A DNA stretch of 28,793 nucleotides from a virus, in the IMG/VR virus record IMGVR_UViG_3300042516_002367, positions 1 to 28,793 of that record; one strand, written 5' to 3'. The stretch's first letter is position 1. The number at the start of each line of letters is the position of its first letter. The translations under genes were made by a program, and so were the position numbers. A model generated the notes under the pieces. The model saw only the letters and a list, made by a program, of their open reading frames with translations, had not been told where the DNA came from and searched no databases. Positions 7,980 to 28,793 of the stretch are shown here, piece by piece.

Positions 7980-9418
7980 TAGCTGAGGGCGGCTGCGAGC
8001 TGCGCTCCGGTGGTGGCCACGGTGCTGCATTGCGCGAGGCGGTCGGTCTGGAGTAGGTCGGTCTTGGCTTTCACCGCGTCGAGCTTCGAGGCTTCGGAGG
8101 CGGCGAGTCTGCTGCTCACGGCTTGGTCCACTCGGGCCAACTCGACCGAAAGCTCGGAACGCACGGCTGCTGCCACCGTGCTGGCGGACGGCGCAGTGAC
8201 TCCGGCGATGGCGGCTTCGAGGAGGCTTTGGTCTGCGGGATCGCTAGGCAGCGCATCGGTCTTCGATTTGATCGCCGAAAGCTGGGTCGAGTTGCTATCG
8301 AGTTCTTGGCGAATCTCGATGGCGGTCGGGCCGCTGGCACTGGTGAGCGTGCGGGTGGCGTGCGACCAGATGTCGCTTGGCGTGACTGATGCTGGGGCGT
8401 TGGTGAGCGTGTCAACCACGCCGCCGGTGATGGTGCGGCTGGCGGCTCCCCACACGGCATTTGCCACGCTGGCTGCGGTTGGGGCGCTGGTCGGCGCGTT
8501 GTAGTCTGCCGATGCGAGCCTGCTCGAAACGGAGGCATCCAAGTTGATGAGCTTGCCGCCGGTGCGCTCAAGGTCGGCTCGGATCGCGGCGACGAGGGCG
8601 ATCTGGTCAACATTGCTGTTTCCGATTGCGGCGACGATGGCGTTCAGAACGGCTTGGCCGTCGCTTTCGTTGAGGATGGAGGACTCGACGGCGGCGGCAA
8701 TGGCCGAGCGTTCGGCGCTGGTGAGGCTGTAGCCTGTTTTGTCTGCGGCGGACCAAACTGCCGAGGCGATGTCTGCGGCTGTTGGTGGAGTGCTTGGCGC
8801 GGTGTAGACCGAACCGGCCAGCCTGCTCGACACGGTGGCGTCGAGGTTTGCCAGCTTGGTGGAGTTGGCATCTAGTTCAGCGCGGATGTCTGCCACGCTC
8901 GGGATCGAGAGGGCGGAGATAGCGGCCTCGACGAGGCTTTGGTCGGCGGGGTCGCTGGGGAGATTGTCTGTGGAGGACTTGATGGCGGCGATGTCGGCGG
9001 TTGGTATGTCGCTGACGGCTGCAGGGCTTGCTGGCAAGTTGTCGGTTTTGGCCTTGATTGCCGAGATGTCTGAGTTCGCTGGGGCGGTGTAGCCCGATGA
9101 AGCGAGGCGTGTGCTGGTGGCGGCGTCGAGGTTTTCGACTCCGGCGCGTCCTAGAACCCAGAGGCTCGGGATGTGCTGGGCGTCCACGGTGGAGTCGCTG
9201 GTTTTGAAGATGGCGGCGTATTCGCCCTCCGAGGAATTGTCGGTCGAGAGCGTGTAGCTATACAACCCACCGCCGAGCGCCGTGGCGCTGCCTGCGGTCA
9301 CGATCTGCGTGCCAGACGGATTGTAGATGTCGACGGTGACGGTGAGGCCGGTTTTGCCTTGTTTCAAGGCGGTAAAAAACGCCAAGAACTTTACGGAGGT
9401 GGATACTTGTTCGAGCAT
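7979..9418 (-). CDS. Repeat-containing tail fibre/appendage protein, 479 aa
   Basis: The N-terminal ~100 residues (MLEQVSTSVKFLAFFTALKQ, then a beta-sandwich-like part ending ...SLWVLGRAGVENLD) look like an attachment domain. The rest repeats units such as (V/A)SSRLA...YxAP, IKxKTDxLPxxPADQS and DANSTKLANLDA, predicted to be coiled or beta-helical shaft. A start at 9418 avoids running through the previous gene. The leader between the previous stop and this ATG is ACCCAACACCACCC, without G and without a Shine-Dalgarno. It is coupled to the small membrane protein gene after it by TAATG. Confidence 0.82.
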   Translation of the reverse strand: MLEQVSTSVKFLAFFTALKQGKTGLTVTVDIYNPSGTQIVTAGSATALGGGLYSYTLSTDNSSEGEYAAIFKTSDSTVDAQHIPSLWVLGRAGVENLDAATSTRLASSGYTAPANSDISAIKAKTDNLPASPAAVSDIPTADIAAIKSSTDNLPSDPADQSLVEAAISALSIPSVADIRAELDANSTKLANLDATVSSRLAGSVYTAPSTPPTAADIASAVWSAADKTGYSLTSAERSAIAAAVESSILNESDGQAVLNAIVAAIGNSNVDQIALVAAIRADLERTGGKLINLDASVSSRLASADYNAPTSAPTAASVANAVWGAASRTITGGVVDTLTNAPASVTPSDIWSHATRTLTSASGPTAIEIRQELDSNSTQLSAIKSKTDALPSDPADQSLLEAAIAGVTAPSASTVAAAVRSELSVELARVDQAVSSRLAASEASKLDAVKAKTDLLQTDRLAQCSTVATTGAQLAAALS

Positions 9419-15959: not shown

Positions 15960-16976
15960 TTAGGCTGTCGGTGCGAACTTGCCGAGAGCCAGAGGGCTCT
16001 TGACGCAGAGGGCGCAGATGGCGTCCACGATGCCGCGTGGGCCACCGCCACGGTCTTCCAGCTCTTGGAAGCGGGGCTTGCGGTTGTAGCGGAGCTCGAC
16101 CATGTCCATGTCGAGGACATAGCCACGGCCGTTTTGCACAGCGGCTGCGTTGGTGGTCGCGTCAGCGGCCAGGAAGAGGCTTGGAATGAGTTCCAAAGTG
16201 CCAAAATCTCCTTCAAAAATATCGACCGTCGAGACGATCTTATTTTCGTCCTTCTGGTTCAACACGCGAATGGCGCTGGCGACATTCGTCGAGGCGAACT
16301 GGGTGCGGGTGAAGGAGGTGAACTGGCGCTTGAGCGTCGGGCCGCAGACGAGGCTGTAGGTCGAAACCTTGCCGGTCTGGGAGTAGATGCTCTGGAGCAT
16401 GTCCTGGATGTTGTTTTCGGTGAGCGATGCGGTCGCAGTCGCGTTGACCGAGCCCGTGGGCGTGCGGTAGTTGGCGTTGACGGGGAGGTCACCTTGCTCG
16501 CCGTTCTGGATCCACTTGCCGAGGCCACGGGTGAGGTAGGCGTTGGAGCCGGATTGCTCGCGGCCTTCTTGGTCCGAGCAGAAGGTGGCTTCCATGTCGC
16601 GCTTGAGCATCTCGAGGGATTTGCTGACGGCGCGGGCCATTTCTTTCTTTTTGCCGATACCTGCTACTTCAGAAACGGTATTCGCGAGATCGTCCACTGA
16701 CGGGACGCGCCGAAACTTCTGAATACGAGCGCTTAACAGCACGCGATTCGCGGCTTGGTCTTCGTAGTCGGAAGCGGTGACATCCGAGTTCGAGAGAACG
16801 CCGGTCAGCGAGGGAGTGCCGAAGGCGTCAGCTTGCCATTGGGTGAGGGGGTTGATGGGTTCTGCGCCCTTTTTCGCCATGGAGACGACGGGGCATGATT
16901 TTGCGTCCACGACCGCGATGAGGTCGGAGAGGTCCTGGCGGATGCCAGTTTGGGAGGTGATGAGTGTTGCGGGCAT
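15960..16976 (-). CDS. Major capsid protein, SU10/DUF5309-like, 338 aa
   Basis: Capsid proteins of the DUF5309 (SU10-type HK97-fold) family show the same order of features. An N-terminal region (DLSDLIAVVDAKSCPVVSMA) is followed by QWQADAF and the Asp/Tyr-rich ASDYEDQAANRVLLSARIQKF. A long helix comes next (KKKEMARAVSKSLEMLKRDM with EATFCSD), then GPTLKRQFTSF near residue 210, and a C-terminal DMDMVELRYNRKPRFQEL. Length and the position after a scaffold-like gene agree. The leader has a C-run and no Shine-Dalgarno, although this should be the most highly expressed gene. Confidence 0.86.
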   Translation of the reverse strand: MPATLITSQTGIRQDLSDLIAVVDAKSCPVVSMAKKGAEPINPLTQWQADAFGTPSLTGVLSNSDVTASDYEDQAANRVLLSARIQKFRRVPSVDDLANTVSEVAGIGKKKEMARAVSKSLEMLKRDMEATFCSDQEGREQSGSNAYLTRGLGKWIQNGEQGDLPVNANYRTPTGSVNATATASLTENNIQDMLQSIYSQTGKVSTYSLVCGPTLKRQFTSFTRTQFASTNVASAIRVLNQKDENKIVSTVDIFEGDFGTLELIPSLFLAADATTNAAAVQNGRGYVLDMDMVELRYNRKPRFQELEDRGGGPRGIVDAICALCVKSPLALGKFAPTA

Positions 16977-19032: not shown

Positions 19033-20617
19033 GGAGCCGACCTCCTTCCACATTGCCGACTCCAGAGGTGAGTAAGTATCTAAGACAATCAATGGGGTCT
19101 TTGCTTGCACCTTTTTGAGAGTCTTGTCCGGTCCATTCTTTGAGGGCCCAGATGGTGTTGGTGCAGCACTCGGAGATATAGAGCCGAGGCGCGTTGGTGT
19201 GGTCGATGGGTGCTTCTTCGTCATAGTAGAGTGCGTTGTTGATGAGGCCGACGCCTTCCTCGATGTTCTCGCCAGGGCAGGATCGGAAGGACATGCCGAC
19301 ATCCTCGAGTTCCTCGAGGAGCGTGGTGGATTGCTCGCGGGTGCCGGCGACGGTGGTGTTCGCATACCTTGAGTCTATCCATCTCTCAAAAATCTTGACT
19401 TTGTCGTGGGCTTCCATGCGCTCGATTTCGGCCTTGTAGGCGAGCAGGCCGAAGCCGAAGGATTTCTGGCCCTCACCGGCTTCGCCGTCGGCTTTCTTGC
19501 CGCTGCTGATCGCCCACGGTCCGGCGTAGCCGACGCCTTCGATGTAGGTGTCGGTCTGCGGCCATTCGCGGTAGACCCACGCCCGCTCGGCGGCGTCGAT
19601 GCGGACCCACACCATAAACCAGTTTTTCCCGCCCGCGGGGTCGCAGAAGAGGTAGTTCGTGCCTTCCTGGGGAATCTGGTCGGCCTTGACGACATGCACC
19701 GACTCGCGGAAGCGGGGAAAGCGCGTGGCGGCGGCCTTGACGGGCACCCCGTAGGCGCGACAGAGGATTTTTTCGCGGGGTTGCTTGGCGAGCTCGGTCT
19801 TCATGCGGCCGTAGCCTGCCCACGGGTTGTTTTTTGTCTGGAAATAGATGATGCCGGCGTGCCGGGTGACGCATTCCTGCACGACGGGGACTTTTTCAAA
19901 TCCCTTGCCGCTTTTTCTCGGCAAAAGCTCGGCATCGCACTCCTCGAGCGTCTTCGCGCCTTGCAGGTAGTTTTTTACCGTGGGCGAGTAGCCTTCGATG
20001 GGAGTGAATGTGACGAGGAGGATGCCATTTCGGTCGAGAAGGCGGAATCGGATGGTTTCGAGCCAATCAAGGGGGACTAATTCGTCGCACCAGGCGAGAT
20101 CGATCTCGCCGCCCTCGATTGTCGTGATGTCCTGGGCGTAATTTCGGAACCACACCTGCGATTTGTTCGGCAACACGGCGGTATTTTCGGAAAAACCGTT
20201 CTTCTGCGTGTAGGAAATGTTGGTGATCTTGCTGCGCTTGGCCGTTCGCAGCTCGGCGGGCATGAAATTCCACACGATGGGCTGCTGCATGGAGATGGAG
20301 TTGTCGTTTGTGGTCTGGAAGCACCACACGCGGCTCGCGGGTTTCTCGAGCAGGGTGCGGACGACCATTTTCCCAGCCCAGGTGGACTTGCCGGAGCGAT
20401 TCCCGCCGAGAACCAAGAGGTCGCGGTAGCGTTTGGCGATTTTTTCGGCCTTCTGCCAGTGCTCGGGCTCGTAGCCGTAGCGAATTGGATCCTCTTTTTC
20501 CAAGACAATGCGGCGCTCGCGCTCGGCAAGCAGGGCCTTCGCCGCCTCGAAGTCGGCAACAAAGTGCTCCGGCGGGATAAATGGCAGTAGCGGGTGGGGC
20601 GTTTGGGTGAATGTCAT
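19007..20617 (-). CDS. terL: Large terminase subunit (packaging ATPase/nuclease), 536 aa
   Basis: Walker A is GGNRSGKS (residues 71-78) and Walker B is IDLAWCDE (172-179), as in phage packaging motors. The C-terminal RNase H-like nuclease has candidate acidic residues at FCDPAGG (Asp326), WIDSRY (Asp415) and DPIDCLRYLL (Asp507/Asp510). An adenine-binding region lies ahead of Walker A (YGYEPEHWQKAEKIAKRYRD). MTFTQTPHPL is chosen because it forms an ATGA overlap with the zinc-ribbon gene. Length is normal for the family. It translocates DNA into the procapsid through the portal and cuts concatemers, working with a small subunit. Confidence 0.94.
   Translation of the reverse strand: MTFTQTPHPLLPFIPPEHFVADFEAAKALLAERERRIVLEKEDPIRYGYEPEHWQKAEKIAKRYRDLLVLGGNRSGKSTWAGKMVVRTLLEKPASRVWCFQTTNDNSISMQQPIVWNFMPAELRTAKRSKITNISYTQKNGFSENTAVLPNKSQVWFRNYAQDITTIEGGEIDLAWCDELVPLDWLETIRFRLLDRNGILLVTFTPIEGYSPTVKNYLQGAKTLEECDAELLPRKSGKGFEKVPVVQECVTRHAGIIYFQTKNNPWAGYGRMKTELAKQPREKILCRAYGVPVKAAATRFPRFRESVHVVKADQIPQEGTNYLFCDPAGGKNWFMVWVRIDAAERAWVYREWPQTDTYIEGVGYAGPWAISSGKKADGEAGEGQKSFGFGLLAYKAEIERMEAHDKVKIFERWIDSRYANTTVAGTREQSTTLLEELEDVGMSFRSCPGENIEEGVGLINNALYYDEEAPIDHTNAPRLYISECCTNTIWALKEWTGQDSQKGASKDPIDCLRYLLTSGVGNVEGGRLHVTGGGAY
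19040..19047 (-). promoter_or_regulatory. Consensus Shine-Dalgarno for the HTH gene
   Basis: AAGGAGGT on the transcribed strand, 7 nt before the ATG at 19032 and inside the end of the large terminase gene. It decides the start and is the strongest ribosome binding site noticed in the window. Confidence 0.92.
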
Positions 20618-20865
20618 AGGGCGGCGAGCTTGTCTTCGATGCGGGTGAGCCAATCGGAGGGCTTAGGCTTGGCCTTGCGGGTGCGTTTGGGGCGTTTGGT
20701 GGGTTTGGGGGCGGGTTTCTTCGCCCAGGGGAACGGGCCGAGGTGCAAGACCTCGGCGGTATTAGAGCGATGGCCGTTCTCGCACCGGCGGCGCCGAAAA
20801 AACTCCTCGCCGACCAACCGGCAGGAGACCACGCGGGTAGGGGATTGGCAGGTGGGGCAGGTCAT
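20614..20865 (-). CDS. Zinc-ribbon protein, 83 aa
   Basis: MTCPTCQSPTRVVSCRLVGE followed by RRRRCENGHRSNTAEV gives Cys3, Cys6, Cys28 and His32. It resembles the NrdR/Ogr-type ribbon in which CPxC...R...RRRRxC..GHR..T.E binds zinc. A Lys/Pro-rich basic linker follows (KKPAPKPTKRPKRTRKAKPK) and then a short helix (DWLTRIEDKLAAL). A DNA-binding regulator or terminase accessory protein is likely. It is coupled by ATGA on both sides. Confidence 0.78.
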   Translation of the reverse strand: MTCPTCQSPTRVVSCRLVGEEFFRRRRCENGHRSNTAEVLHLGPFPWAKKPAPKPTKRPKRTRKAKPKPSDWLTRIEDKLAAL

Positions 20866-21170
20866 TTAGCGGCTTCCTTGAGTTGCTCCCATGCGTTTCG
20901 GTAAAAGCGAACATCTGCCATGAGCACTTGGTTGCTTTCTGACATCTGCTGTGCCAGCTCCCTCGCCTCGTCGCGCTCTTGCGCATGTTTGACCGCAAGT
21001 TGCTTGTAAGCCTGTCGTCCGGCCCTCGCCTCGTCGCGCTCATTCTCTGCCCTTGCGGCCATCTCTACGGCGGCATTCCACTTGTTTTTCAATCCCTCGA
21101 TTTCGTGCCTCGCCTTGTCGCGCTCGCGCCGTAACTGCGCGATCATGGAGAGAAATTCGTTCGGCGTCAT
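20862..21170 (-). CDS. Coiled-coil protein, 102 aa
   Basis: Almost the whole protein is a charged heptad helix (SMIAQLRRERDKARHEIEGL to FYRNAWEQLKEAAK), with repeated ERDEAR segments. It starts in an ATGA overlap and ends in another, with the zinc-ribbon gene. It may be a scaffold or adaptor near the terminase; no enzymatic motif is present. Confidence 0.78.
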   Translation of the reverse strand: MTPNEFLSMIAQLRRERDKARHEIEGLKNKWNAAVEMAARAENERDEARAGRQAYKQLAVKHAQERDEARELAQQMSESNQVLMADVRFYRNAWEQLKEAAK

Positions 21171-21589
21171 CCCTCATACCCCCCGTGCAGCAGCGGGTTC
21201 GTTTTCGGCTTCGTCGCCACCAATGCCCCGCCGGCGTCCACTCCCACCAACACCGGCTCGTTCGCTCGGTAGAAGGTATTGCTGCGGACCTGCACATTCA
21301 CGACCTCCTCCTCGAGGACGACCCGCAAAATCCGAGGATTCTGCGGCTGTCTCCCTGGCGCGGTCTTTCCCATCCTCGGCCACTCGGGCGGGGTAGGGGG
21401 TTGCTCTTGCTTCGTTTCTTGCTTGTTAGGTTGGGCTTTTTTCATAAAATTTTTCGGGGGCTGGACGAGTGGGGGTAATTTTGCGGAGCCAGCGGACCGA
21501 CCCCCCTCCCCCCCCCTGTCGAGGCCATAACTTCCAATAACCACTCTAATGGATAGTGGGCGGTTGTTGATGTTCAATGGCTTACTCAT
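21167..21589 (-). CDS. Hypothetical protein with poly-G tract, 140 aa (start uncertain)
   Basis: The end is secure because of the ATGA overlap with the coiled-coil gene. The C-terminal part (RILRVVLEEEVVNVQVRSNTFYRANEPVLVGV) reads as a real beta domain. Starting at 21589 gives an 8-nt overlap with the small-terminase stop (ATGAGTAA). An ATG at 21598 and another at 21445 (MKKAQPNKQE) are alternatives. The N-terminal 50 residues are Gly/Pro-rich and include a G9-A-G6 run at 21501-21516, which could be a frameshift-prone site. Function is unknown. Confidence 0.58.
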   Translation of the reverse strand: MSKPLNINNRPLSIRVVIGSYGLDRGGEGGRSAGSAKLPPLVQPPKNFMKKAQPNKQETKQEQPPTPPEWPRMGKTAPGRQPQNPRILRVVLEEEVVNVQVRSNTFYRANEPVLVGVDAGGALVATKPKTNPLLHGGYEG

Positions 21590-22370
21590 TCGATCCATTA
21601 TCCTCCTCGTTTTTAGCCTTGTTATTGAGACTGAGCGGGGTGTTTGCCAAGGGCTTCTCCACCTCGCTACTGGTTCCCGAGGGGGTCTCGATCTCGAACT
21701 CGCCATCGATGTCATCGACTTTCTTCGGGATGCTGTTGATGAGTTCCTCGAACGACAACGCATTGATCTTCTGGTTGATGTTGATGGTGAGCTGGGCGCC
21801 GCCTTCGCTGTCGCGGATCTTGTCTTGAGCGGTTCCGGCTACGAAGTTGAGCTCGGCGGCTTTCATCTTGCTGACTTGGGTGGGGTCGTTGAGCTTGTCG
21901 CGGAGGGCATCGACGGCCAGGCGTCGGACATCCTTCCAGCTTGAGGCGGCGACTTGAGCTTCCTTGTCTTTGGTGTCTGGGTGGTTAGCGATGATGCGAG
22001 AGATCACCGCGGGCTTGACGCCCAGCTTGGTGTTGATGGCGGAGACCGTCATGCCCATGAGGTAGAAGTCGGCGACGATGTCGCACATCTGGCGGAACTG
22101 GGTAGACATCGCATCCCAGTTGACCGTTTCTTCGCACGCAGCGGCCTGTTCTAGGGCTTTTTCCAGCTTATTGGGCCTTGACCCCATCTCGGACTTGATC
22201 GGGGCTTCTGCGCGTTTCTGGAGCTTCCATTCCTTGGCCTCCTCGTAATCCATCGGACAACCGGCATCGAACCACTGCGTGGCGGTCTGGACGCTGACAT
22301 GGAATTCAGCGGCCAGCTTTGTGGCGATGGAGTGTTTGGTTTCTGGCTTGGCAGATCGTTTGGGTTTCAT
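21582..22370 (-). CDS. Putative small terminase subunit (DNA recognition), 262 aa
   Basis: Residues ~12-38 (KHSIATKLAAEFHVSVQTATQWFDAGCPM) form an HTH of the Nu1/small-terminase type. A second HTH-like unit lies at ~100-130 (DFYLMGMTVSAINTKLGVKPAVISRIIANH). Next comes a helical region (SSWKDVRRLAVDALRDKLND, then KMKAAELNFVAGTAQDKIRD), and the C-terminal tail is acidic and low-complexity. Small terminases have this DNA-binding, oligomerisation and tail order. The start MKPKRSAKPETK is fixed by ATGA overlap. The repeat array at 22629-22803 lies ~260 bp upstream. A transcription-factor role cannot be excluded. Confidence 0.62.
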   Translation of the reverse strand: MKPKRSAKPETKHSIATKLAAEFHVSVQTATQWFDAGCPMDYEEAKEWKLQKRAEAPIKSEMGSRPNKLEKALEQAAACEETVNWDAMSTQFRQMCDIVADFYLMGMTVSAINTKLGVKPAVISRIIANHPDTKDKEAQVAASSWKDVRRLAVDALRDKLNDPTQVSKMKAAELNFVAGTAQDKIRDSEGGAQLTININQKINALSFEELINSIPKKVDDIDGEFEIETPSGTSSEVEKPLANTPLSLNNKAKNEEDNGSNE

Positions 22371-22621
22371 AAGCGGGCCTTCCAGTTGCTGGCCTCGACG
22401 ACGAGTCGCCGGGCTTCCTCGAGGGAGTGGAAGTAGACCTCCTGCTCGGTGATATCGCGGGTGTATTCGGGCGGCTCGATGTGGTTCAGCGCCCAGCGGA
22501 GATATTCGGCGAGGTCGGAGGCCATGCGGCAGGTGTGTGAGATGCCTGGGTGGTCTTGCCATTCGCGGCCGCAGGCTTGGCAAGCGATGAGCGGGTCGGT
22601 TTCTTTTCTTGGGGTGTTCAT
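22367..22621 (-). CDS. Small zinc-finger-like protein, 84 aa
   Basis: MNTPRKETDPLIACQACGRE is preferred as start because GGAG lies 7 nt upstream; an ATG 15 nt earlier would place that Shine-Dalgarno inside the gene. Cys14-x2-Cys17 with His29 and Cys31 form a possible zinc site. The rest is helical (MASDLAEYLRWALNHI, then FHSLEEARRLVVEASNWKARL). It overlaps the putative small terminase gene by ATGA. Function is unrecognised. Confidence 0.72.
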   Translation of the reverse strand: MNTPRKETDPLIACQACGREWQDHPGISHTCRMASDLAEYLRWALNHIEPPEYTRDITEQEVYFHSLEEARRLVVEASNWKARL

Positions 22622-22628
22622 GTGGTTG

Positions 22629-22803
22629 CTCCGCATAATCTATTTTGCGGATTTTGATGGTTGGAAATGACCCCTCCGAAAAATTACTCCTCCGCAAAAC
22701 AATCCCCCCTTCTTAGGGGGATTTTGCGGAGGTAATTTTGCGGAGGTCATCCATGCTCCGCAGAATTGGAGTATTGCGGAGGTTTTGCGGAGGTTTTGCG
22801 GAG
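22629..22803. repeat. TTTTGCGGAGG repeat array with large palindrome (candidate origin, pac or regulatory site)
   Basis: About ten copies of an 11-nt motif (+ strand TTTTGCGGAGG or part of it) lie in 175 bp. Direct copies are at 22643, 22722, 22736, 22773, 22783 and 22794. Inverted copies are at 22629, 22673 (degenerate), 22689 and 22756. The inverted copy at 22689-22699 and the direct copy at 22722-22732 flank AATCCCCC/GGGGGATT (22701-22708 and 22716-22723), giving one long, slightly bulged palindrome. The array sits between the helicase gene and the putative small terminase block. Confidence 0.88.
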
Positions 22804-22816
22804 TCAGGAAAAACAT
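22640..22816 (-). CDS. Doubtful 58-aa frame running through the repeat array
   Basis: An open frame starts two bases after the helicase stop (TGACTATG) and stays open across the whole array, ending 18 nt before the next start. The product begins MFFLTPQNLRKTSAILQFCG and is built from the repeats read in shifting frames. Continuous coupling with neighbours argues for coding. The palindrome and the 11-nt period, which is not a multiple of three, argue for a DNA site. Both could be true; I recognise no protein family. Confidence 0.28.
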   Translation of the reverse strand: MFFLTPQNLRKTSAILQFCGAWMTSAKLPPQNPPKKGGLFCGGVIFRRGHFQPSKSAK

Positions 22817-22818
22817 AG

Positions 22819-24327
22819 TCAGGCGGCGGCTTTCTGTGGTTGAGTGTTCTTGTCTAGGACCCGCTTGATGGTGTCGTGAGAGACCTTGTATTTGCTCATG
22901 GCGGCAGAATAAAAACCTCGGGTGTTGTCTGGCCAATTGGCGTGCATGGTCACGATCTCGAGTTCTTGCACAGCGTTGAGGGCGGACGGCCTGCCGGACT
23001 TGCCCTGCGACTTGCCCTCTTCTTGGGTCTCCTCGGGGAGTTCTGCCGGTTCCCAGTGCAATCCCTTGTCGGCATGCTTGATCACGATGTCTGTGGTCGG
23101 GTGGCCGTGGTTATCGACTACGGCGGCACGATTGCCCCGCTTCGCTAGGAGAACCTTGAAGATTCCTTCGTGTTTAGTGGTTTGCAACACGCAGATCGCC
23201 CGAGCCCAGTTCGTTAGCTCACTCGATCCCAGCCCGATGTAAGCATAATCATTCGCATTCCAATGCGCCCGGCTCTTCGAGTCGCTCTGCGGCTTCCCCG
23301 TGTGGTGACTCCACACCCACGCAAACCCATGCTCGAAGGCCAGCGGGTTGCACAGCTCCCGCAAAAAGTGACTCGCCACCGCCTGCTGGGAAATATCGTC
23401 GCCGATGAAAGACAGCAACGGATCCCCGTAGACCAGATCAAACGGCCCGTGCTTCGCAATCAGCTCCCGGATCACCTCGATGAACGCCTCACCCGTCTGA
23501 GCCGTCACCCGCGCCACGATCACATTCTCCCGCAGGATATCCACCGCCTCGCGCTGCGTCATCTTCGACTGCGCCACCACATACGACATCACGCCCTGGA
23601 CAACCTCAGCCATGTCCCCCATATCGTTCTCCGCCTGCACGATCAGGCACTTGAGCCGCCGCTTCGGCTTCATCCCAAAAAACGGCATCCCCAGCGCCCA
23701 AGTCATCGCCTGCTGGAGAGTGTAGGAGGATTTGCCAATCCCGCTCTGCCCCAGCAGCAGCAGCTGCCCGCCACGGCACAGCCAGCGGTTCCCCACCAGC
23801 GTGCTCGAATCATCCTCCGCCTTGTAACTCCACAGCTCCTCAAAAGTATGCATCTCCACGCCCACCATCGACGCCCGAGGCTTCGCCAGCGTCTTGAGCT
23901 CCTCCAGCGCCTCCGCCACAGGCATATCCCCCGAGGCCAACCTCTGACCGATCTTAGTCGCCTTGCGCTGCGCCGCCGCCGAGGCGATGTCAGCCAGGTA
24001 TTCCGACACGATGGCGCCACCCGCCGGGTTGTAAGCCAGCGAGCTGTCCGCCATGACCAAGCCATCCCGCCAGCACACCATCCCCGACTCCTGCGCCGTC
24101 CGCTCCGCCACCTTCAGCAAAAACGGATCCCGCTCGATCGCCTCGAGGATCGTCGTGCCCGTCGTGGCCTTCTTGGCATAGTGCAGCCGGTGCGCAGCCG
24201 CGTAATAGACACCATTGAGCACCGAGACAAAACTATCGGGATCTACAATCGCCGACCTCGGCACGCCGGCGAATCCAGCGACACTAATATAGCCGACGAC
24301 GGCGCTCTCTTTCTCAGGGTATTGCAT
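22819..24327 (-). CDS. DnaB/RepA-like replicative helicase with C-terminal HTH, 502 aa
   Basis: Residues ~30-145 resemble a DnaB N-terminal domain (VYYAAAHRLHYAKKATTGTTILEAIERD, then AIVSEYLADIASAAAQRKATKIGQRLASG). A RecA-fold ATPase follows, with Walker A GQSGIGKS (193-200), Walker B LVYGDP (298-303) and the HHTGKP motif (341-346) seen in RepA/AAA_25-type helicases. The C-terminal ~60 residues (MHANWPDNTRGFYSAAMSKYKVSHDTIKRVLD) read as an HTH, unusual for DnaB and suited to recognising DNA such as the adjacent repeats. The start at 24327 follows a 16-nt AT-rich spacer. G/C bias reverses within this gene near residue 375. Confidence 0.84.
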   Translation of the reverse strand: MQYPEKESAVVGYISVAGFAGVPRSAIVDPDSFVSVLNGVYYAAAHRLHYAKKATTGTTILEAIERDPFLLKVAERTAQESGMVCWRDGLVMADSSLAYNPAGGAIVSEYLADIASAAAQRKATKIGQRLASGDMPVAEALEELKTLAKPRASMVGVEMHTFEELWSYKAEDDSSTLVGNRWLCRGGQLLLLGQSGIGKSSYTLQQAMTWALGMPFFGMKPKRRLKCLIVQAENDMGDMAEVVQGVMSYVVAQSKMTQREAVDILRENVIVARVTAQTGEAFIEVIRELIAKHGPFDLVYGDPLLSFIGDDISQQAVASHFLRELCNPLAFEHGFAWVWSHHTGKPQSDSKSRAHWNANDYAYIGLGSSELTNWARAICVLQTTKHEGIFKVLLAKRGNRAAVVDNHGHPTTDIVIKHADKGLHWEPAELPEETQEEGKSQGKSGRPSALNAVQELEIVTMHANWPDNTRGFYSAAMSKYKVSHDTIKRVLDKNTQPQKAAA

Positions 24328-24343
24328 TAAATAAGTTCTTCTA

Positions 24344-24745
24344 TTAAAACGCGAAAAGCTCGCTCTCCCCAGACAAAGTTTCCCTATATTCAGGTATCGC
24401 CATCAGAGCGGAATGCATCGCTTCCGGCTTAACCCCATCCCGACAAACGATGTGCCATGCCTCAATGTATAATTGAAGTAGCATTTGGCTTTTATTTAGC
24501 TTTTTGCTACTAATTGACCCCATGCTTCTCCATCCGCTACACGCTCCAACCGTGTTAACTAATTTAAAAAAATTGCAATAGCCTTTGTCTGGCCATGGGA
24601 TAACCATCACTTGACCTGGAATTCCATAACATCCATCACGCAATGAGTTCCATGCAATCATTGCAGATTTTATTGGGACATCTCCAAAATATGGGATTCT
24701 TCGAGAATCTAATTCTTTAAGAATGTCAGAATTTGTTTTTTCCAT
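24344..24745 (-). CDS. AT-rich orphan protein, 133 aa
   Basis: MEKTNSDILKELDSRRIPYF begins two bases after the resolvase stop, with GAAGGA as Shine-Dalgarno. The gene is far richer in A+T than its neighbours; for example, 24661-24720 has 19 G+C of 60 by hand count. The protein has GIPGQVMVIPWPDKGYCNFF, then SKKLNKSQMLLQLYIEAWHI. There is no membrane segment or recognised motif. It looks like a recent insert (a moron) between resolvase and helicase; function unknown. Confidence 0.75.
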   Translation of the reverse strand: MEKTNSDILKELDSRRIPYFGDVPIKSAMIAWNSLRDGCYGIPGQVMVIPWPDKGYCNFFKLVNTVGACSGWRSMGSISSKKLNKSQMLLQLYIEAWHIVCRDGVKPEAMHSALMAIPEYRETLSGESELFAF

Positions 24746-24747
24746 TT

Positions 24748-25185
24748 TTATTCCTTCACATCCCCCGCATACACCGCCACAGCCAGCGCCGCCCACAGGT
24801 GGGAGCGCATGCCGTAGGTCGGGCCGGGATTTTTCTTCGTGCCCTGCGGCCCGAGGCGGTCGATCAGCGCCTGCCGCACATTCGCATCCTTCGCCCGCGG
24901 CGAGTGGCACAGGTGCAGCTTCGCATCGCGCCGGTAGACCAAGCGCGGCTCCACCCGAGCCACTTCCACGAACCGCCCGATCCAAACACAAGTCTCGAAA
25001 ACCTCCTTGCCCACCGCCATGCCGTAGCTGGCGATCATCTCGCACGCCACCGCGTCATATTCGCGGCCGATGAGGATTTGGCGAATCTCCGCATTCGGCA
25101 GGTGGTCGGCCTCGAGGATCCGGCGCCCGTCCCACAGGACAAACGCCGTCTCCGTCGTGCCAGGATCGAGGGCCAGGATCGTCAT
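24748..25185 (-). CDS. RuvC/RNase H-fold Holliday junction resolvase-like nuclease, 145 aa
   Basis: The start MTILALDPGTTETAFVLWDG holds the first catalytic Asp (Asp7) in the DPGT motif of RuvC-type resolvases. CEMIASYGM places Glu49, followed by the helix AVGKEVFETCVWIGRF. KDANVRQALIDRL (Asp100) and the terminal SHLWAALAVAVY (His129) match the later catalytic positions of the family. It would cut branched DNA before packaging or during recombination. The start forms an ATGA overlap with the gene before it; upstream Met residues would lie in that gene. Confidence 0.86.
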   Translation of the reverse strand: MTILALDPGTTETAFVLWDGRRILEADHLPNAEIRQILIGREYDAVACEMIASYGMAVGKEVFETCVWIGRFVEVARVEPRLVYRRDAKLHLCHSPRAKDANVRQALIDRLGPQGTKKNPGPTYGMRSHLWAALAVAVYAGDVKE

Positions 25186-25409
25186 ACGAGGTCCGGCAGG
25201 TTGCGGCGCAGCGAGGCCCCAACCACCCAAGCCCGCACGGCCTCGATGGTCTTCTCATCCATGCCGGCAAAAGCTCCCGCCCCATGCTTGACGAGCGAGC
25301 GGCACTCTTGGTCCAGATCGTTCAGCACCAGCAAGGCATCCAGCCCCGACTGAGCGTAACGCATCTCCGCCTCGTCCTGCGGCAGGTCAAATTCCAGTAT
25401 CCCCCTCAT
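25182..25409 (-). CDS. Small acidic phage protein, 75 aa
   Basis: MRGILEFDLPQDEAEMRYAQ followed by ALLVLNDLDQECRSLVKHG resembles a short family found in phage recombination clusters, opening with LEFxLPED and containing LxDLDQxxR. It lies between the SSB-like and resolvase genes, 2 nt from one and overlapping the other. It has no catalytic motif; a role with the SSB or resolvase is inferred from position. Confidence 0.75.
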   Translation of the reverse strand: MRGILEFDLPQDEAEMRYAQSGLDALLVLNDLDQECRSLVKHGAGAFAGMDEKTIEAVRAWVVGASLRRNLPDLV

Positions 25410-25411
25410 GG

Positions 25412-25906
25412 TTAAAACGGAATGTCGTCCGAGGTTTTGGGCGTAGGTTTCGTTGGCGCCTTCACATCATCGCCCCGGTCGATCTTCGCCACCCGCTCGG
25501 CCAGCGCCTCGATCACCGTGGCATCCACCTCGTTCTTCGGAGCCATCTCCGCAGGGTTCAGCCACTTCACCTTGTGCCGAGTCTCCCCGTTGTATTCTTC
25601 CGAATCCACCGTGATCCGAGCCATCTGCCCCGCAAAGCTCGCCGCCCCACTCGCCAAGGACTTGATGTCCCAGTTCTTGCCGAAGCAATCGTCCAGCGTC
25701 TGGATCGTCCTCCGCGCCGCGGCCTCCGTCAGGTAGCCCCTCCACACGATCTCGCGCCCCTCCTGCGAGCCCGCATCGGTCACAAGCAATGGAATGCGAA
25801 TGAATTCGCTCCCGCTCCCCGACACCCCGATCCAGCCATTCCCCGGCGCCTTCACCTTGCAAAGGTATCGGCCCGACTCGTTCACATATCTATTTTCGTT
25901 ATCCAT
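25412..25906 (-). CDS. SSB-like single-stranded DNA-binding protein, 164 aa
   Basis: The N-terminal half is beta-rich (GRYLCKVKAPGNGWIGVSGS, then FIRIPLLVTDAG and EIVWRGYLTEAAARRTIQTL). The middle reads FGKNWDIKSLASGAASFAGQMARITVDSEEYNGETRHKVKWLNP, like DUF669-type phage proteins. It ends SDDIPF, the acidic hydrophobic tip used by bacterial and phage SSBs to recruit partners. It lies in the same run as a Sak4-like ATPase, a RecB-family nuclease and a resolvase. The start follows the nuclease stop after 3 nt. Confidence 0.78.
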   Translation of the reverse strand: MDNENRYVNESGRYLCKVKAPGNGWIGVSGSGSEFIRIPLLVTDAGSQEGREIVWRGYLTEAAARRTIQTLDDCFGKNWDIKSLASGAASFAGQMARITVDSEEYNGETRHKVKWLNPAEMAPKNEVDATVIEALAERVAKIDRGDDVKAPTKPTPKTSDDIPF

Positions 25907-25909
25907 ATA

Positions 25910-26944
25910 TTAGTTTAGTTGTTTGGTTTGTTTTGTTTTCACTTGTCTGAGTTGCTTTGTCGTCGAACCCGTGCGCACATGCGCGTTCAGCGGTTCTTTG
26001 CCCAGTTGAGCCGCCCACTCGCGGTAGGCTTTGCCGGACATCTTTCCCCCGAGTGCCAGGATGATGGATTCCACCGGCGCATTCGTCTCCCTCGCCACCC
26101 ACAGAATCCCCTCGACATCAAAGTATTCGCGCCCCTTCACCTCGGTCAGCTTCCAGCCATCCACCTCACGGCCGTCCTCAAGCATCGATTTGAGTGCATC
26201 GAGAGCAGGTTCCGCGATGGCTTTTTCGACTGCCTTCCATTGGCTTACAAAAAGCCCCAAAGTTTCCGGCGACTCCAGCACCCGCTCCAGCATCGCCGAC
26301 AGGGTAGGGGACTCCGCCGCGATCACCGCCAGCCCCTGCTCCACCGGCTTCACCACGGCAGGGCAGAAATCGTAATTGGCACACCAGCCGCAGTATTCCG
26401 ACGCCCGAGGCTCCGATGCCGGATCATTCACCTCGGCAATAATGCGTTCCACAATCCCCTTCGCCTGCTCCAGCGTGAAGCGGTAGCTCTTCACCACCTG
26501 GTGGTCGCAATACAGAACATGGGCCGTATATTCCTCCTCGAAACTCATGTGCATCATGGCGTAACAATAGGCCGCGACCTGCTCGGCATACCCGCGTAAC
26601 TGCCCTGTCTTGAGGTCTGCCACCCAGCCCAGCTTGGTGCACAGCGCATCCGCCGTGCCGATGTGGGCGATTCCCGGCGTATGCATCGCCAGATACTCCT
26701 CCCGCGCCTCGATGGTCCCCGTCCGCTTGTAGTCCTCCATGAGGGCGACCGCCCACTCCACGGCTGGGCGGTCCTCCGCCGGCAGCGCGTCGATCTTGGT
26801 GCGGTCGCCCTGCAACCCCAATCTAAACGCCTCGTCCATCACCGTTCCCCGCTGCGCCGCGGGCCCCGCATCCCCCGGCTTCGGTGTGTATTTCGGGCAA
26901 GCCGCCAGCTTCGGCAGCATGCTGTGTCGTATGTTATATGTCAT
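25910..26944 (-). CDS. PD-(D/E)XK nuclease, Cas4/RecB-like with probable Fe-S cluster, 344 aa
   Basis: GTAD (Asp99), DLKTG (Asp110, Lys112) and EQVAAYCYA (Gln122, Tyr126) form the RecB-family nuclease core. One Cys near the N-terminus (AACPKY, Cys16) and a C-terminal CGWC-x5-C group (Cys185, Cys188, Cys194) are placed as in Cas4/AddB proteins that hold a 4Fe-4S cluster. The rest is helical. It probably resects DNA ends to supply single strands to the Sak4/SSB system. It overlaps the small gene before it by 11 nt. DUF2800-type phage nucleases are the nearest match I can name. Confidence 0.85.
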   Translation of the reverse strand: MTYNIRHSMLPKLAACPKYTPKPGDAGPAAQRGTVMDEAFRLGLQGDRTKIDALPAEDRPAVEWAVALMEDYKRTGTIEAREEYLAMHTPGIAHIGTADALCTKLGWVADLKTGQLRGYAEQVAAYCYAMMHMSFEEEYTAHVLYCDHQVVKSYRFTLEQAKGIVERIIAEVNDPASEPRASEYCGWCANYDFCPAVVKPVEQGLAVIAAESPTLSAMLERVLESPETLGLFVSQWKAVEKAIAEPALDALKSMLEDGREVDGWKLTEVKGREYFDVEGILWVARETNAPVESIILALGGKMSGKAYREWAAQLGKEPLNAHVRTGSTTKQLRQVKTKQTKQLN

Positions 26945-27197
26945 GGTGTGTTTTATTGATAAATTTTGCGTAGTTTTTTCCTGTCAGTTTTCCTCGAGAG
27001 GCCAGCCACCGGTCACACGCCGCATTCACTTCCTCGCAGCTCGTCACCGAGAGGTAGGGAGGCAGCGCCCGGATATCGCTCGGCGAGTAGGTCTCAATCC
27101 GCAGCCTTCTTTTGAGCCACCCCTCGGGGGAGGTTTTGGTGTGAAACAAATCACCCACCTCCCCCAAAGCCTCCCGGCATGCCCTCTCCAGAGTCAT
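26934..27197 (-). CDS. Hypothetical recombination-block protein, 87 aa
   Basis: MTLERACREALGEVGDLFHT starts two bases after the ATPase stop. The protein is small, helical and basic (GWLKRRLRIETYS, then ALPPYLSVTSCEEVNAACDRWLASRGKL). Its end overlaps the nuclease gene start by 11 nt (ATGACATATAA). There is no recognised domain. Tight placement between the ATPase and nuclease suggests an accessory role in recombination. Confidence 0.72.
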   Translation of the reverse strand: MTLERACREALGEVGDLFHTKTSPEGWLKRRLRIETYSPSDIRALPPYLSVTSCEEVNAACDRWLASRGKLTGKNYAKFINKTHHDI

Positions 27198-27199
27198 CG

Positions 27200-28129
27200 T
27201 TACGCGGCCTTCGTTACGGCTTTTACGAAATCCTCCGGCCTCGCCGAGACCTGGTCCCGCAGCGCCGGCGGCATATCCCGCCAAGTCTGCCCCTCCGAGA
27301 TTTTGCCCTTCGCCAAGAGCCAGGCATTCACAGCCTGCTCATGAGGTTCCAGGTAAGTCTCCAAAGGTTCCGCTGCCGCATAAGCCGCAGCCGCAGCCGC
27401 CACCGGAGCCTTCACCGCACCGAAGAGCGAGGAAATACTCGCGTATTCCAGAGGCAACTCATCCGCCAGCTCCGAGCGAGTCTTCGCATCGTAAGCCGCC
27501 GTGTGCGTCGTAAAGAGCACCCGCTCCTTGCCCCCGCGCCCCTTCGCCTTGCCCGACTCGCTCTCGACAATGCGAGTCTTGAAGTTGAGGAAAAACAGGT
27601 GATCCACCCATTCCTTCACCAGCGGCCCCGTCTGCTTGATGAGCTTGAGCTCATAGCGGTCGTAGGCTTGCACTTGATCCGGCGGCTCCACCCGCTTCAC
27701 CTGAGCGTGACCGATCAGCACCACATGGATCCCCGCATCGATCAGCCGATCCAGATCGTTAAGAAAACGAGCCATCCGCTCCGAGGCCATCGTAAAGCCC
27801 TTGCCATACGGAATCTCCTCGAGCGACTTGATCTTCTTCTCCGCCTTCAAGTCCTCGATACACAGGCGCTCCGCCCAATCAATCGAGTCCAGCACCACCG
27901 ACTTGTAGCCATAGCTCCCCGAGGCCAGCTCACGCACCACCTCCAGCAGCTCCGCCCAAGTCCCGATCTCCTGCCGAGGCACATCGAGGTGCGCCGTCCC
28001 CTTCTCGACATCGAGAAAGACCGGCTGCGGCATTTTGGCGGCCAGCGTGGTTTTTCCAACGCTCTCCACCCCATAAAAGCAGACCCGCTGGGCCCGCTGT
28101 AGTTTTCCTGTTACTATGTTCAGTTTCAT
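27200..28129 (-). CDS. Sak4-like RecA-fold ATPase (single-strand annealing/recombination), 309 aa
   Basis: The Walker A is YGVESVGKTTLA (residues 19-30), with Walker B VVLD near residue 81 and a sensor strand VVLIGHAQVKRV. This is the AAA_24/Sak4 layout of phage recombinases. Residues ~245-262 are an Ala-rich linker (AVKAPVAAAAAAYAAAEPL), and the C-terminal ~50 residues are a helical tail. ATG at 28129 is chosen because GAGG lies upstream and earlier Met codons fall in the previous gene. With the nuclease, SSB and RuvC-like protein it forms a full strand-annealing module. Confidence 0.84.
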   Translation of the reverse strand: MKLNIVTGKLQRAQRVCFYGVESVGKTTLAAKMPQPVFLDVEKGTAHLDVPRQEIGTWAELLEVVRELASGSYGYKSVVLDSIDWAERLCIEDLKAEKKIKSLEEIPYGKGFTMASERMARFLNDLDRLIDAGIHVVLIGHAQVKRVEPPDQVQAYDRYELKLIKQTGPLVKEWVDHLFFLNFKTRIVESESGKAKGRGGKERVLFTTHTAAYDAKTRSELADELPLEYASISSLFGAVKAPVAAAAAAYAAAEPLETYLEPHEQAVNAWLLAKGKISEGQTWRDMPPALRDQVSARPEDFVKAVTKAA

Positions 28130-28133
28130 AATT

Positions 28134-28301
28134 TTAATCCTCAAAATCCTCCAAGTTGTTCGCATCCCACTCACGCCACCGATCTTCCTTCTCCCGCAGC
28201 TTGCGGAGCCGAATCAGAATGTCCCGTTGCCCGAGGCAATAGCTGGCCCAGCAACTGCCCAGCGTCAGCACCGCAATGGAAATGGCCAGCGTGGCGCTCA
28301 C
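28134..28301 (-). CDS. Small membrane protein with GTG start, 55 aa
   Basis: A GTG at 28301 overlaps the preceding TGA by GTGA and opens a 55-codon frame to TAA at 28134. The product starts MSATLAISIAVLTLGSCWAS, one membrane segment (about residues 4-24), followed by a charged helix (LIRLRKLREKEDRWREWDAN) and an acidic end (NLEDFED). The gene ends 4 nt before the Sak4-like gene. Coding is supported by junctions on both sides and by the helix pattern. Function is unknown; the layout fits a small single-pass membrane anchor. Confidence 0.7.
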   Translation of the reverse strand: MSATLAISIAVLTLGSCWASYCLGQRDILIRLRKLREKEDRWREWDANNLEDFED

Positions 28302-28498
28302 TTCGCGGCCTCCTCCGGTGGGTCAGGGAGCGGCCTCCAATGCAAAACCGGCTCCTCTTCGTGGATGCGTTCCCCTGCGACATTGCGCCAGACATCGCCA
28401 TCAATGAATCCAGTCCAAACCTCGCCACCCAGCGTGTGAATGATGACCGCCTCGCCATCGTCGGGCAGAGCGGCTTCAACATTTATCCACGCGCTCAT
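28298..28498 (-). CDS. DUF551-like small protein, 66 aa
   Basis: MSAWINVEAALPDDGEAVII followed by WTGFIDGDVWR and EPVLHWRPLPDPPEEA matches the DUF551 pattern (W-I-S/N-V-x-x-x-L-P-x-D-G-x-x-V, ending with H-W-x-P-L-P-x-P-P) common in phages and prophages. Function of the family is unknown. The start is fixed by ATGA overlap, and the end overlaps the GTG of the next gene. Confidence 0.82.
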   Translation of the reverse strand: MSAWINVEAALPDDGEAVIIHTLGGEVWTGFIDGDVWRNVAGERIHEEEPVLHWRPLPDPPEEAAK

Positions 28499-28752
28499 TT
28501 CTCCTCCTCCACCAGTTTCACTTTGAGCGACGCACTGCCGACCGGCCTCACCTCGGCCACCAGTTCGAGAATCTGATAAGTCCCACATGCAGATTCATCC
28601 CGATCTTTTAGCGGTGTTTCTGACTCTTCCCACCAATCCGCAAAATCCTTGCGTATAAAAGCCTCCGCAGCCGCACGGGTCTCGTAGGGGCCAAACATGT
28701 CAAGCATGCCGATTTTTCGGGCCTCAGTGTCGGTGACATAAAAAGCGCTCAT
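28495..28752 (-). CDS. Hypothetical protein, 85 aa
   Basis: MSAFYVTDTEARKIGMLDMF starts at 28752, with GGGGAGAAGG as Shine-Dalgarno and an ATGA overlap with an upstream gene end. An ATG 18 nt earlier would swallow the Shine-Dalgarno. The middle (FGPYETRAAAEAFIRKDFADWWEE) resembles short proteins of the type FGPY-x-T-x-x-x-A-x-x-F. The C-terminus is beta-like (TYQILELVAEVRPVGSASLKVKLVEEEK). No defined function is known to me. Confidence 0.74.
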   Translation of the reverse strand: MSAFYVTDTEARKIGMLDMFGPYETRAAAEAFIRKDFADWWEESETPLKDRDESACGTYQILELVAEVRPVGSASLKVKLVEEEK

Positions 28753-28793
28753 CGTGCCTTCTCCCCCCATGTGGTGACCCAGTAGGTTGCGAC
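28749..28793 (-). CDS. C-terminal end of an upstream gene (cut by window edge)
   Basis: The first 15 codons of the transcribed strand are open and read VATYWVTTWGEKAR then TGA, ending in an ATGA overlap with the next gene, the junction used throughout the window. Only 14 residues are visible, so identity is unknown. Chance alone could give this, hence modest confidence. Confidence 0.45.
   Translation of the reverse strand, partial: VATYWVTTWGEKAR

Follow-up and report, generated by a model that had tools for sequence, protein, structure and literature searches.

The helicase-array locus

The window, which is the whole stretch of 28,793 nucleotides that was analysed (IMG/VR record IMGVR_UViG_3300042516_002367), carries the gene of a DnaB-like helicase and, 14 bp beyond its stop codon, an array of short sites arranged about a hairpin. 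The array is wholly intergenic, lying between the helicase stop (22819) and the start of an 84-aa gene (22621). The gene order past the array is 84-aa gene, TerS-like gene and terminase large subunit. The features are listed here, with A and B denoting two motif classes described below.

22819-24327, minus strand: DnaB-like replicative helicase, 502 aa (Pfam AAA_25, PHROG, Foldseek)
22843-22995, minus strand: C-terminal HTH, about residues 445-495, probable exchanged specificity domain (model; swaps between near-identical genomes)
22843-22878, minus strand: predicted recognition helix, residues 484-495, with A/B-discriminating residues 484, 488, 492 and 495 (alignment, model)
22628-22804, no strand: ten-site array, proposed origin (motif search, layout scan, surrogates)
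22794-22804, plus strand: site 1 (motif search, as for all sites)
22783-22793, plus strand: site 2
22772-22782, plus strand: site 3
22755-22765, minus strand: site 4
22736-22746, plus strand: site 5
22722-22732, plus strand: site 6
22704-22721, minus strand: central C5/G5 hairpin; 22692-22730 when sites 6 and 7 are included (folding, stem search)
22689-22699, minus strand: site 7
22673-22683, minus strand: site 8
22643-22653, plus strand: site 9
22628-22638, minus strand: site 10, overlapping the GGAG ahead of the 84-aa gene
22367-22621, minus strand: 84-aa gene, outside the proposed mechanism (family searches)
21582-22370, minus strand: TerS-like protein, 262 aa, excluded as the motif-setting factor (identity across A/B switches)

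With up to two mismatches allowed, TTTTGCGGAGG has ten matches in 22628-22804 (four exact, three with one mismatch and three with two), six on the plus and four on the minus strand. The original prediction, of about ten copies of an 11-nt motif in both orientations within 175 bp, is thereby borne out, its coordinates being correct to within 1 bp. At the same threshold the whole window yields 31 matches, compared with a shuffled mean of 13.6 and a largest shuffle of 25. All four exact copies in the 28.8-kb record lie in the array, and the reversed control pattern has none. The densest 180-bp span contains ten sites in the window and at most three in 200 first-order Markov surrogates; together with the shuffle counts, this rules out chance as the origin of the array. 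A bulged hairpin with AATCCCCC/GGGGGATT within it, at 22692-22730 on the helicase (minus) strand, folds with DNA parameters at -14.6 kcal/mol (z = -4.9, with 0 of 200 shuffles equally good), which agrees with the palindrome predicted to enclose these two words. A known RNA family was rejected as the identity of the array, as it matched no Rfam family at the gathering threshold.

The product of the 84-aa gene, taken as the in-frame protein, had no family match in profile searches, and the HTH matches of the TerS-like protein are weak, all falling below cut-off. An SU10-type major capsid protein is encoded at 15960-16976 (Pfam E = 6e-44). For positions 20000-28793, we found no near DNA relative among 50,697 phage records; at the protein level, the relatives in these records comprise one weak helicase match (23% over 41%) and a distant TerL match to phage C75C1, in which the helicase region carries a different annotation.

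A DnaB-like motor with a C-terminal HTH

The helicase consists of an N-terminal helical portion, a RecA-like AAA_25 motor (Pfam E = 9e-16; PHROG DnaB-like helicase, E = 0.0013) and the C-terminal HTH. In Foldseek, the full model (mean pLDDT 59) ranks DnaB structures first (4esv, E = 4e-6), with 35 matches below 0.001; its low TM-scores result from poor domain arrangement. The helicase profile found nothing at E 0.01 among PDB sequences, and Pfam did not detect the DnaB N-domain in the window helicase. This domain (PF00772) matches 6 of 15 relatives at E values of up to 5, and exceeds the Pfam cut-off in one relative only (L049, 24.9 vs 23 bits). Neither Pfam nor PHROGs gave a primase domain in the window helicase; a distant relative, L106, matches a DNA primase family.

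The HTH tail is modelled as a three-helix HTH (mean pLDDT 80, core 92-96) whose third helix spans residues 484-495. In fold it resembles HTH and homeodomain proteins, among them the Tc3 transposase and Hin, with VIA Z values of 6.2 to Tc3 (1u78) and 5.2 to Hin (1ijw, aligned from a GRP-type arm on), all below 8 and hence below the level of kinship. The HTH model had no Foldseek match with E below 0.001, and the best match of the HTH profile among PDB sequences had E = 0.043. The Hin arm offers a parallel for a DNA-contacting arm ahead of helix 1; by this analogy, the GRP-type arm that precedes helix 1 in the phage helicase perhaps reads a shared A-tract half of the sites.

In a complete relative (G007), an 8-kb early region extends from an integrase gene (PHROG E = 3e-22) to the helicase. 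It has ORFs like the Sak4, exonuclease and SSB of the window, a RuvC-like ORF (recognized by eye) and small RHH and HTH proteins, and in the subset of its ORFs that was searched there is no obvious separate initiator, loader or primase. A sequence resembling a tRNA 3' end precedes the integrase in G007 (about 37600-38950) and in another genome, G002 (about 27160-28470), at the GC-skew inflection. The att-like tRNA end (seen by eye) beside the integrase suggests that these phages are temperate.

A conserved layout with rewritten motifs

Two scans of viral contigs provided the relatives (loci L005-L103). An array with a C/G hairpin lies 3' of the helicase gene in 77 sequences, the window and 76 loci, a set defined by the presence of the HTH tail and readable downstream DNA; L016, L038, L098, L099 and L100, whose contigs stop before or just past the helicase end, are left out of the counts. 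The hairpins of L041, L043, L044 and L103 were taken from the position-scan table and not from the stem search. Three regular motif classes are found: A (TCCGCA) in 19 sequences, including the window, B (RCCGCA) in 26 and C (GTCCAR) in 8. Four further, less regular types are D (CCGAAA) in 3, G (CCCACAAA) in 15, H (GGAAAA) in 4 and I (GCCAAAA) in 2, with L086 counted as class G since its array and tail are both of type G. The 17 readable relatives without the HTH tail have neither the hairpin nor a comparable array (L073 is cut off). Eight of these HTH-less loci (L061, L062 and L066-L071) carry 4-5 copies of AGGATGA or GAGGATG near the helicase end.

The order and spacing of the sites, +++-++ hairpin --+-, are kept among relatives although the motif differs. 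In class A, the sites lie at -88+, -76+, -66+, -48-, -30+, -16+, +18-, +34-, +64+ and +80- from the hairpin centre. Class B and C sites fall within about 4 bp of these positions, with 8 to 10 of the ten filled and, now and then in classes A to C, an additional site (the layout scan tabulates distinct layouts). The sharing of one layout by arrays with different motifs implies that in these three classes the layout is older than the motif. The layouts of class D and of L056 (class H) are near this scaffold, and classes G, I and two H loci occupy only 3-6 of the ten positions. The hairpin has compensatory variants among relatives, for example CCACCC/GGGTGG. A search for the motif at the same locus in related phages, as originally proposed, thus found the array and its site order, with the motif rewritten by class. 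Loci sharing the neighbouring genes always had the array, again with the motif rewritten, so that the situation named as evidence against the original prediction, relatives with the same neighbours and no repeats, did not arise.

Within class A and B arrays the sites are nearly uniform. All 187 of 187 sites in the 19 class A loci have T immediately before the CCG core, and 226 of 230 sites in the 26 class B loci have a purine there, a contrast that speaks to uniformity within arrays and not to the existence of the A/B difference, because the class labels themselves derive from motif counts. The number of repeats by itself fails to exceed the best of 100 shuffles for several class B arrays and for most of those in classes D, G, H and I, which are supported instead by their position, their hairpin and linkage. 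In five of seven records the array ranks first among repeat windows; a denser repeat occurs elsewhere in G005 and a tie in G010 (ATTGCCG eight times at about 25400 and CGCCCTC six times at about 19150, respectively, at densities equal to or above that of the array). Additional motif copies are present in L041, L043 and L044 about 200 bp ahead of the main scaffold, downstream of the helicase. A single TTTTGCGGAGC lies at 21479-21489 in the window, some 1.2 kb beyond the array on its downstream side; A and B relatives both have the word at a comparable distance, and it is hence independent of motif class.

Motif and HTH switch together

At every A, B and C locus examined, the array motif and the helicase HTH switch jointly. 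The recognition helix reads [HG]DTIK in 19 of 19 class A sequences, RDTIE or DDTIQ in 26 of 26 class B sequences, and [RK]S[KT]IY in all eight of class C. Ten alignment columns fully separate A from B. Two of them are in helix 1 (456 and 460), the next four are 484, 488, 492 and 495, and the last four belong to the loose end. The spacing of the middle four in the modelled third helix (i, i+4, i+8, i+11) would place them on one face.

The switches have occurred between otherwise very similar genomes. The eight best cross-class pairs listed have TerS-like proteins that are 98.8-99.6% identical and helicase bodies that are 88.4-98.3% identical, but HTH tails with only 44.3-47.5% identity; in the natural A/B pairs every array site is switched. 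The transition is sharp when L024 (class A) is compared with L031 (class B): the two are 95-98% identical right up to the HTH, fall to about 50% across the final 180 nt of the helicase gene and 55-74% in the array, and then return to 90-100% for about 900 nt through the TerS-like gene. In L035, a helicase body of A/B type is combined with the tail and array of class C. On a tree of the helicase body (51 rows, 38 of them different), the distribution of classes A, B and C requires 9 changes, compared with a shuffled mean of 20.6, and the supported branches force at least three changes for B. Two independent A/B pairs lie on well-supported branches and both agree, a number too small for any significance from the pair test.

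We compared two A genomes (G002 and G003) with all B sequences in the set. Within 10 kb, the only class-specific stretch common to both consists of the last 180 nt of the helicase gene and the start of the array; the remainder of the array is not flagged because its smoothed identity stays at or above 0.75. Isolated class-specific bins that the two do not share lie at +1.9 kb in one A genome and at +3.0 and +3.1 kb in the other.

As the HTH and the array are adjacent, their joint inheritance is expected from linkage; the argument for recognition comes only from the fact that all sites have changed in concert. The HTH and all the sites switch while the TerS-like protein stays near-identical, and the helicase, not TerS, is thus the likely binder of the array. 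The array, its fixed layout, the concerted motif change, the accompanying HTH change and the exclusion of TerS are features of the sequences themselves.

The array as a candidate replication origin

We propose, with a probability of roughly 70%, that the array is the site scaffold of the adjoining helicase, most likely the replication origin of the phage, and that the HTH and array are exchanged as a cassette. An origin is the best reading because a helicase with its own reader adjoins iterons and a conserved hairpin, and because SaPI Rep and Cch2, discussed below, provide a precedent. As at iteron origins, a cluster of short repeats lies beside an initiator or helicase gene. GC skew changes from plus to minus across the array in five of six genomes at 4-kb flanks (the exception being G008; at 2-kb flanks G003 fails instead), and the array is not at a GC-skew minimum, the polarity of the sign change being opposite to that of a textbook origin. 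A second skew inflection occurs at the integrase/att region; as both coincide with module borders, the skew may mark only the early and late modules. The array lies outside the six lowest-GC 200-bp windows in each of seven records, and the hairpin could stand in place of an AT-rich melting region.

From these patterns, we infer binding, arm contact, melting, self-loading and origin activity as follows. Copies of the helicase, a DnaB-like replicative enzyme to which a C-terminal HTH has been added, would bind the ten sites through the HTH; at every site the recognition helix would read the variable half and the GRP-type arm perhaps the conserved A-tract half. The bound helicases would assemble as two oppositely facing groups flanking the hairpin and help to extrude or melt it, and the helicase would then load itself for replication without a separate initiator. 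The coding end of the HTH and the adjoining array would be swapped between phages as a single specificity cassette.

Other explanations account for parts of these data. The array might be a regulatory or terminator element at the early/late border, with the hairpin ending the early transcript and the HTH-bound helicase repressing or regulating late genes. Its position at that border, where GC skew also changes, the overlap of its last site with the GGAG of the next gene, and the scoring of the hairpin and its T-rich tail as a terminator on the helicase strand all fit this explanation. We nevertheless consider it unlikely, since terminator-like matches occur near shuffle frequency (3 found vs a mean of 1.4), no sigma-70-like promoter was found in 22300-23100, an operator needs fewer than ten rigidly spaced sites flanking a hairpin, and in distant relatives, by eye, the array stays while the downstream gene differs. 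A replication fork barrier or terminus, at which the helicase-bound array would stop forks, agrees with the terminus-type skew polarity in five of six genomes (a cumulative GC-skew maximum) and with the opposite inflection at the att/integrase region. It appears very unlikely, however, as both inflections lie at module borders, G008 has no skew change at 4 kb, the sites point both ways and the protein that stops the forks would itself be the replicative helicase.

Two further alternatives assign the motif to another protein. A factor encoded elsewhere could read it while the HTH hitch-hikes, and there is room for such a factor, as 24-25% of bases are unmatched between A and B genomes (three comparisons) and both G002 and G003 have class-specific stretches far from the array. 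These distant stretches, however, lie at different places in the two genomes, barring possibly one 100-bp bin, and the HTH changes at every switch on the side of the helix predicted to face DNA, which makes this explanation highly improbable. The original prediction had left open whether the array serves as iterons, as a pac/cos packaging site or as an operator cluster, with the helicase HTH and the TerS-like protein as candidate binders, and the genes for this protein and the terminase large subunit do lie just downstream. The co-change of motif and HTH in classes A, B and C favours iterons read by the helicase. Site specificity does not follow TerS, which is near-identical across A/B switches, and in distant relatives (by eye) the array travels with the helicase and not with TerS. 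We therefore reject TerS as the binder, although it had been named as a candidate, and give a packaging site next to no credence.

Distant relatives of the helicase

A distant relative of the helicase was found in 23 of 387 prokaryote genomes, and in 20 of 288 in an overlapping draw. By a strict repeat test, 7 of 24 distant loci (including three from named MAGs or genomes) have an array of their own, different in sequence, right after the gene, and the other 17 fail; 13 of 1250 control windows had at least four repeat copies. Several further loci, outside the seven counted, show by eye a C/G hairpin with flanking repeats, and the C-terminal domains of the distant helicases look mutually unrelated, also by eye. 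This suggests that a helicase with its own downstream array may be a general design. On the chromosome of Puniceicoccaceae bacterium Marseille-Q1082 (L107, about 9050-9260), a distant helicase is followed by TAGGGATA-type repeats.

Relation to known systems

The phage P4 alpha protein reportedly combines origin recognition and helicase, and primase as well, in one protein; the likeness proposed here is the union of the first two activities in a single phage protein, no primase domain having been found in that of the window. In SV40 large T antigen, the origin-binding domain is N-terminal and the helicase fold is different. Like the window helicase, large T joins a helicase to a DNA reader, in its case a domain that reads short repeats (PMC3401641), but SV40 infects animals.

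The closest functional parallel is provided by SaPI Rep and SCCmec Cch2, whose C-terminal domain reads iterons directly downstream of their own helicase gene (PMC7581432). In that paper, these proteins are compared with MCM, and Cch2, which has three iterons, is placed in the D5 family. The window helicase likewise has a C-terminal HTH, as modelled, and iterons directly downstream, but its motor has the RecA fold and is DnaB-like, not an AAA+ of D5/MCM type. Because the helicase fold differs, we regard it as functionally like these proteins but not as a member of their group. Unlike the three iterons described there for Cch2, the ten sites of the window are in both orientations and keep a set arrangement about a C/G hairpin, and the motif and HTH switch in concert among near-identical genomes. 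The lambda O protein and lactococcal replisome organisers are phage-encoded proteins that recognize origin repeat arrays; in these systems the repeats are located within the gene of the initiator, and initiator and helicase are distinct proteins (PMC8965321), which is not so here. Our literature search, mostly outside subscription papers, found no DnaB-like helicase with a co-switching HTH and array.

Pressure on origins exists elsewhere, and by analogy may bear on these phages. Origin copies supplied in trans can block phage, as described for lambda (PMC4488673) and for lactococcal PER (PMC8965321), and the PLE RepA/ICP1 Odn system shows exchange or restructuring of replication modules and of origin iterons, a change for which an origin-directed nuclease selects (PMC8263062). 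The proteins of the latter system are different, and it only hints at what selection might lie behind the switching in the present phages.

We tentatively suggest, at somewhat less than even odds, that there is a widespread class of self-addressing DnaB-like helicases, found in many phages and integrated elements, in which an exchangeable C-terminal DNA-binding domain and its own downstream iteron array about a C/G hairpin form a portable cassette. Through rewriting or exchange of the cassette, close relatives would be mutually incompatible at the origin, perhaps escaping origin decoys, origin-targeting nucleases or satellites, and the rigid ten-site layout would determine the loading of two helicase rings. 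If our proposal for the array is true, these phages constitute a naturally occurring set of helicases paired with DNA sites of matching specificity, with almost everything else constant, and would give a direct route to studying how an HTH recognition code evolves and how ten sites are rewritten jointly. They would also provide an origin, possibly a simple one, at which a DnaB-like helicase needs no loader, together with orthogonal origin/helicase pairs, and would make it testable whether origin diversification is an escape from decoys or origin-directed nucleases.
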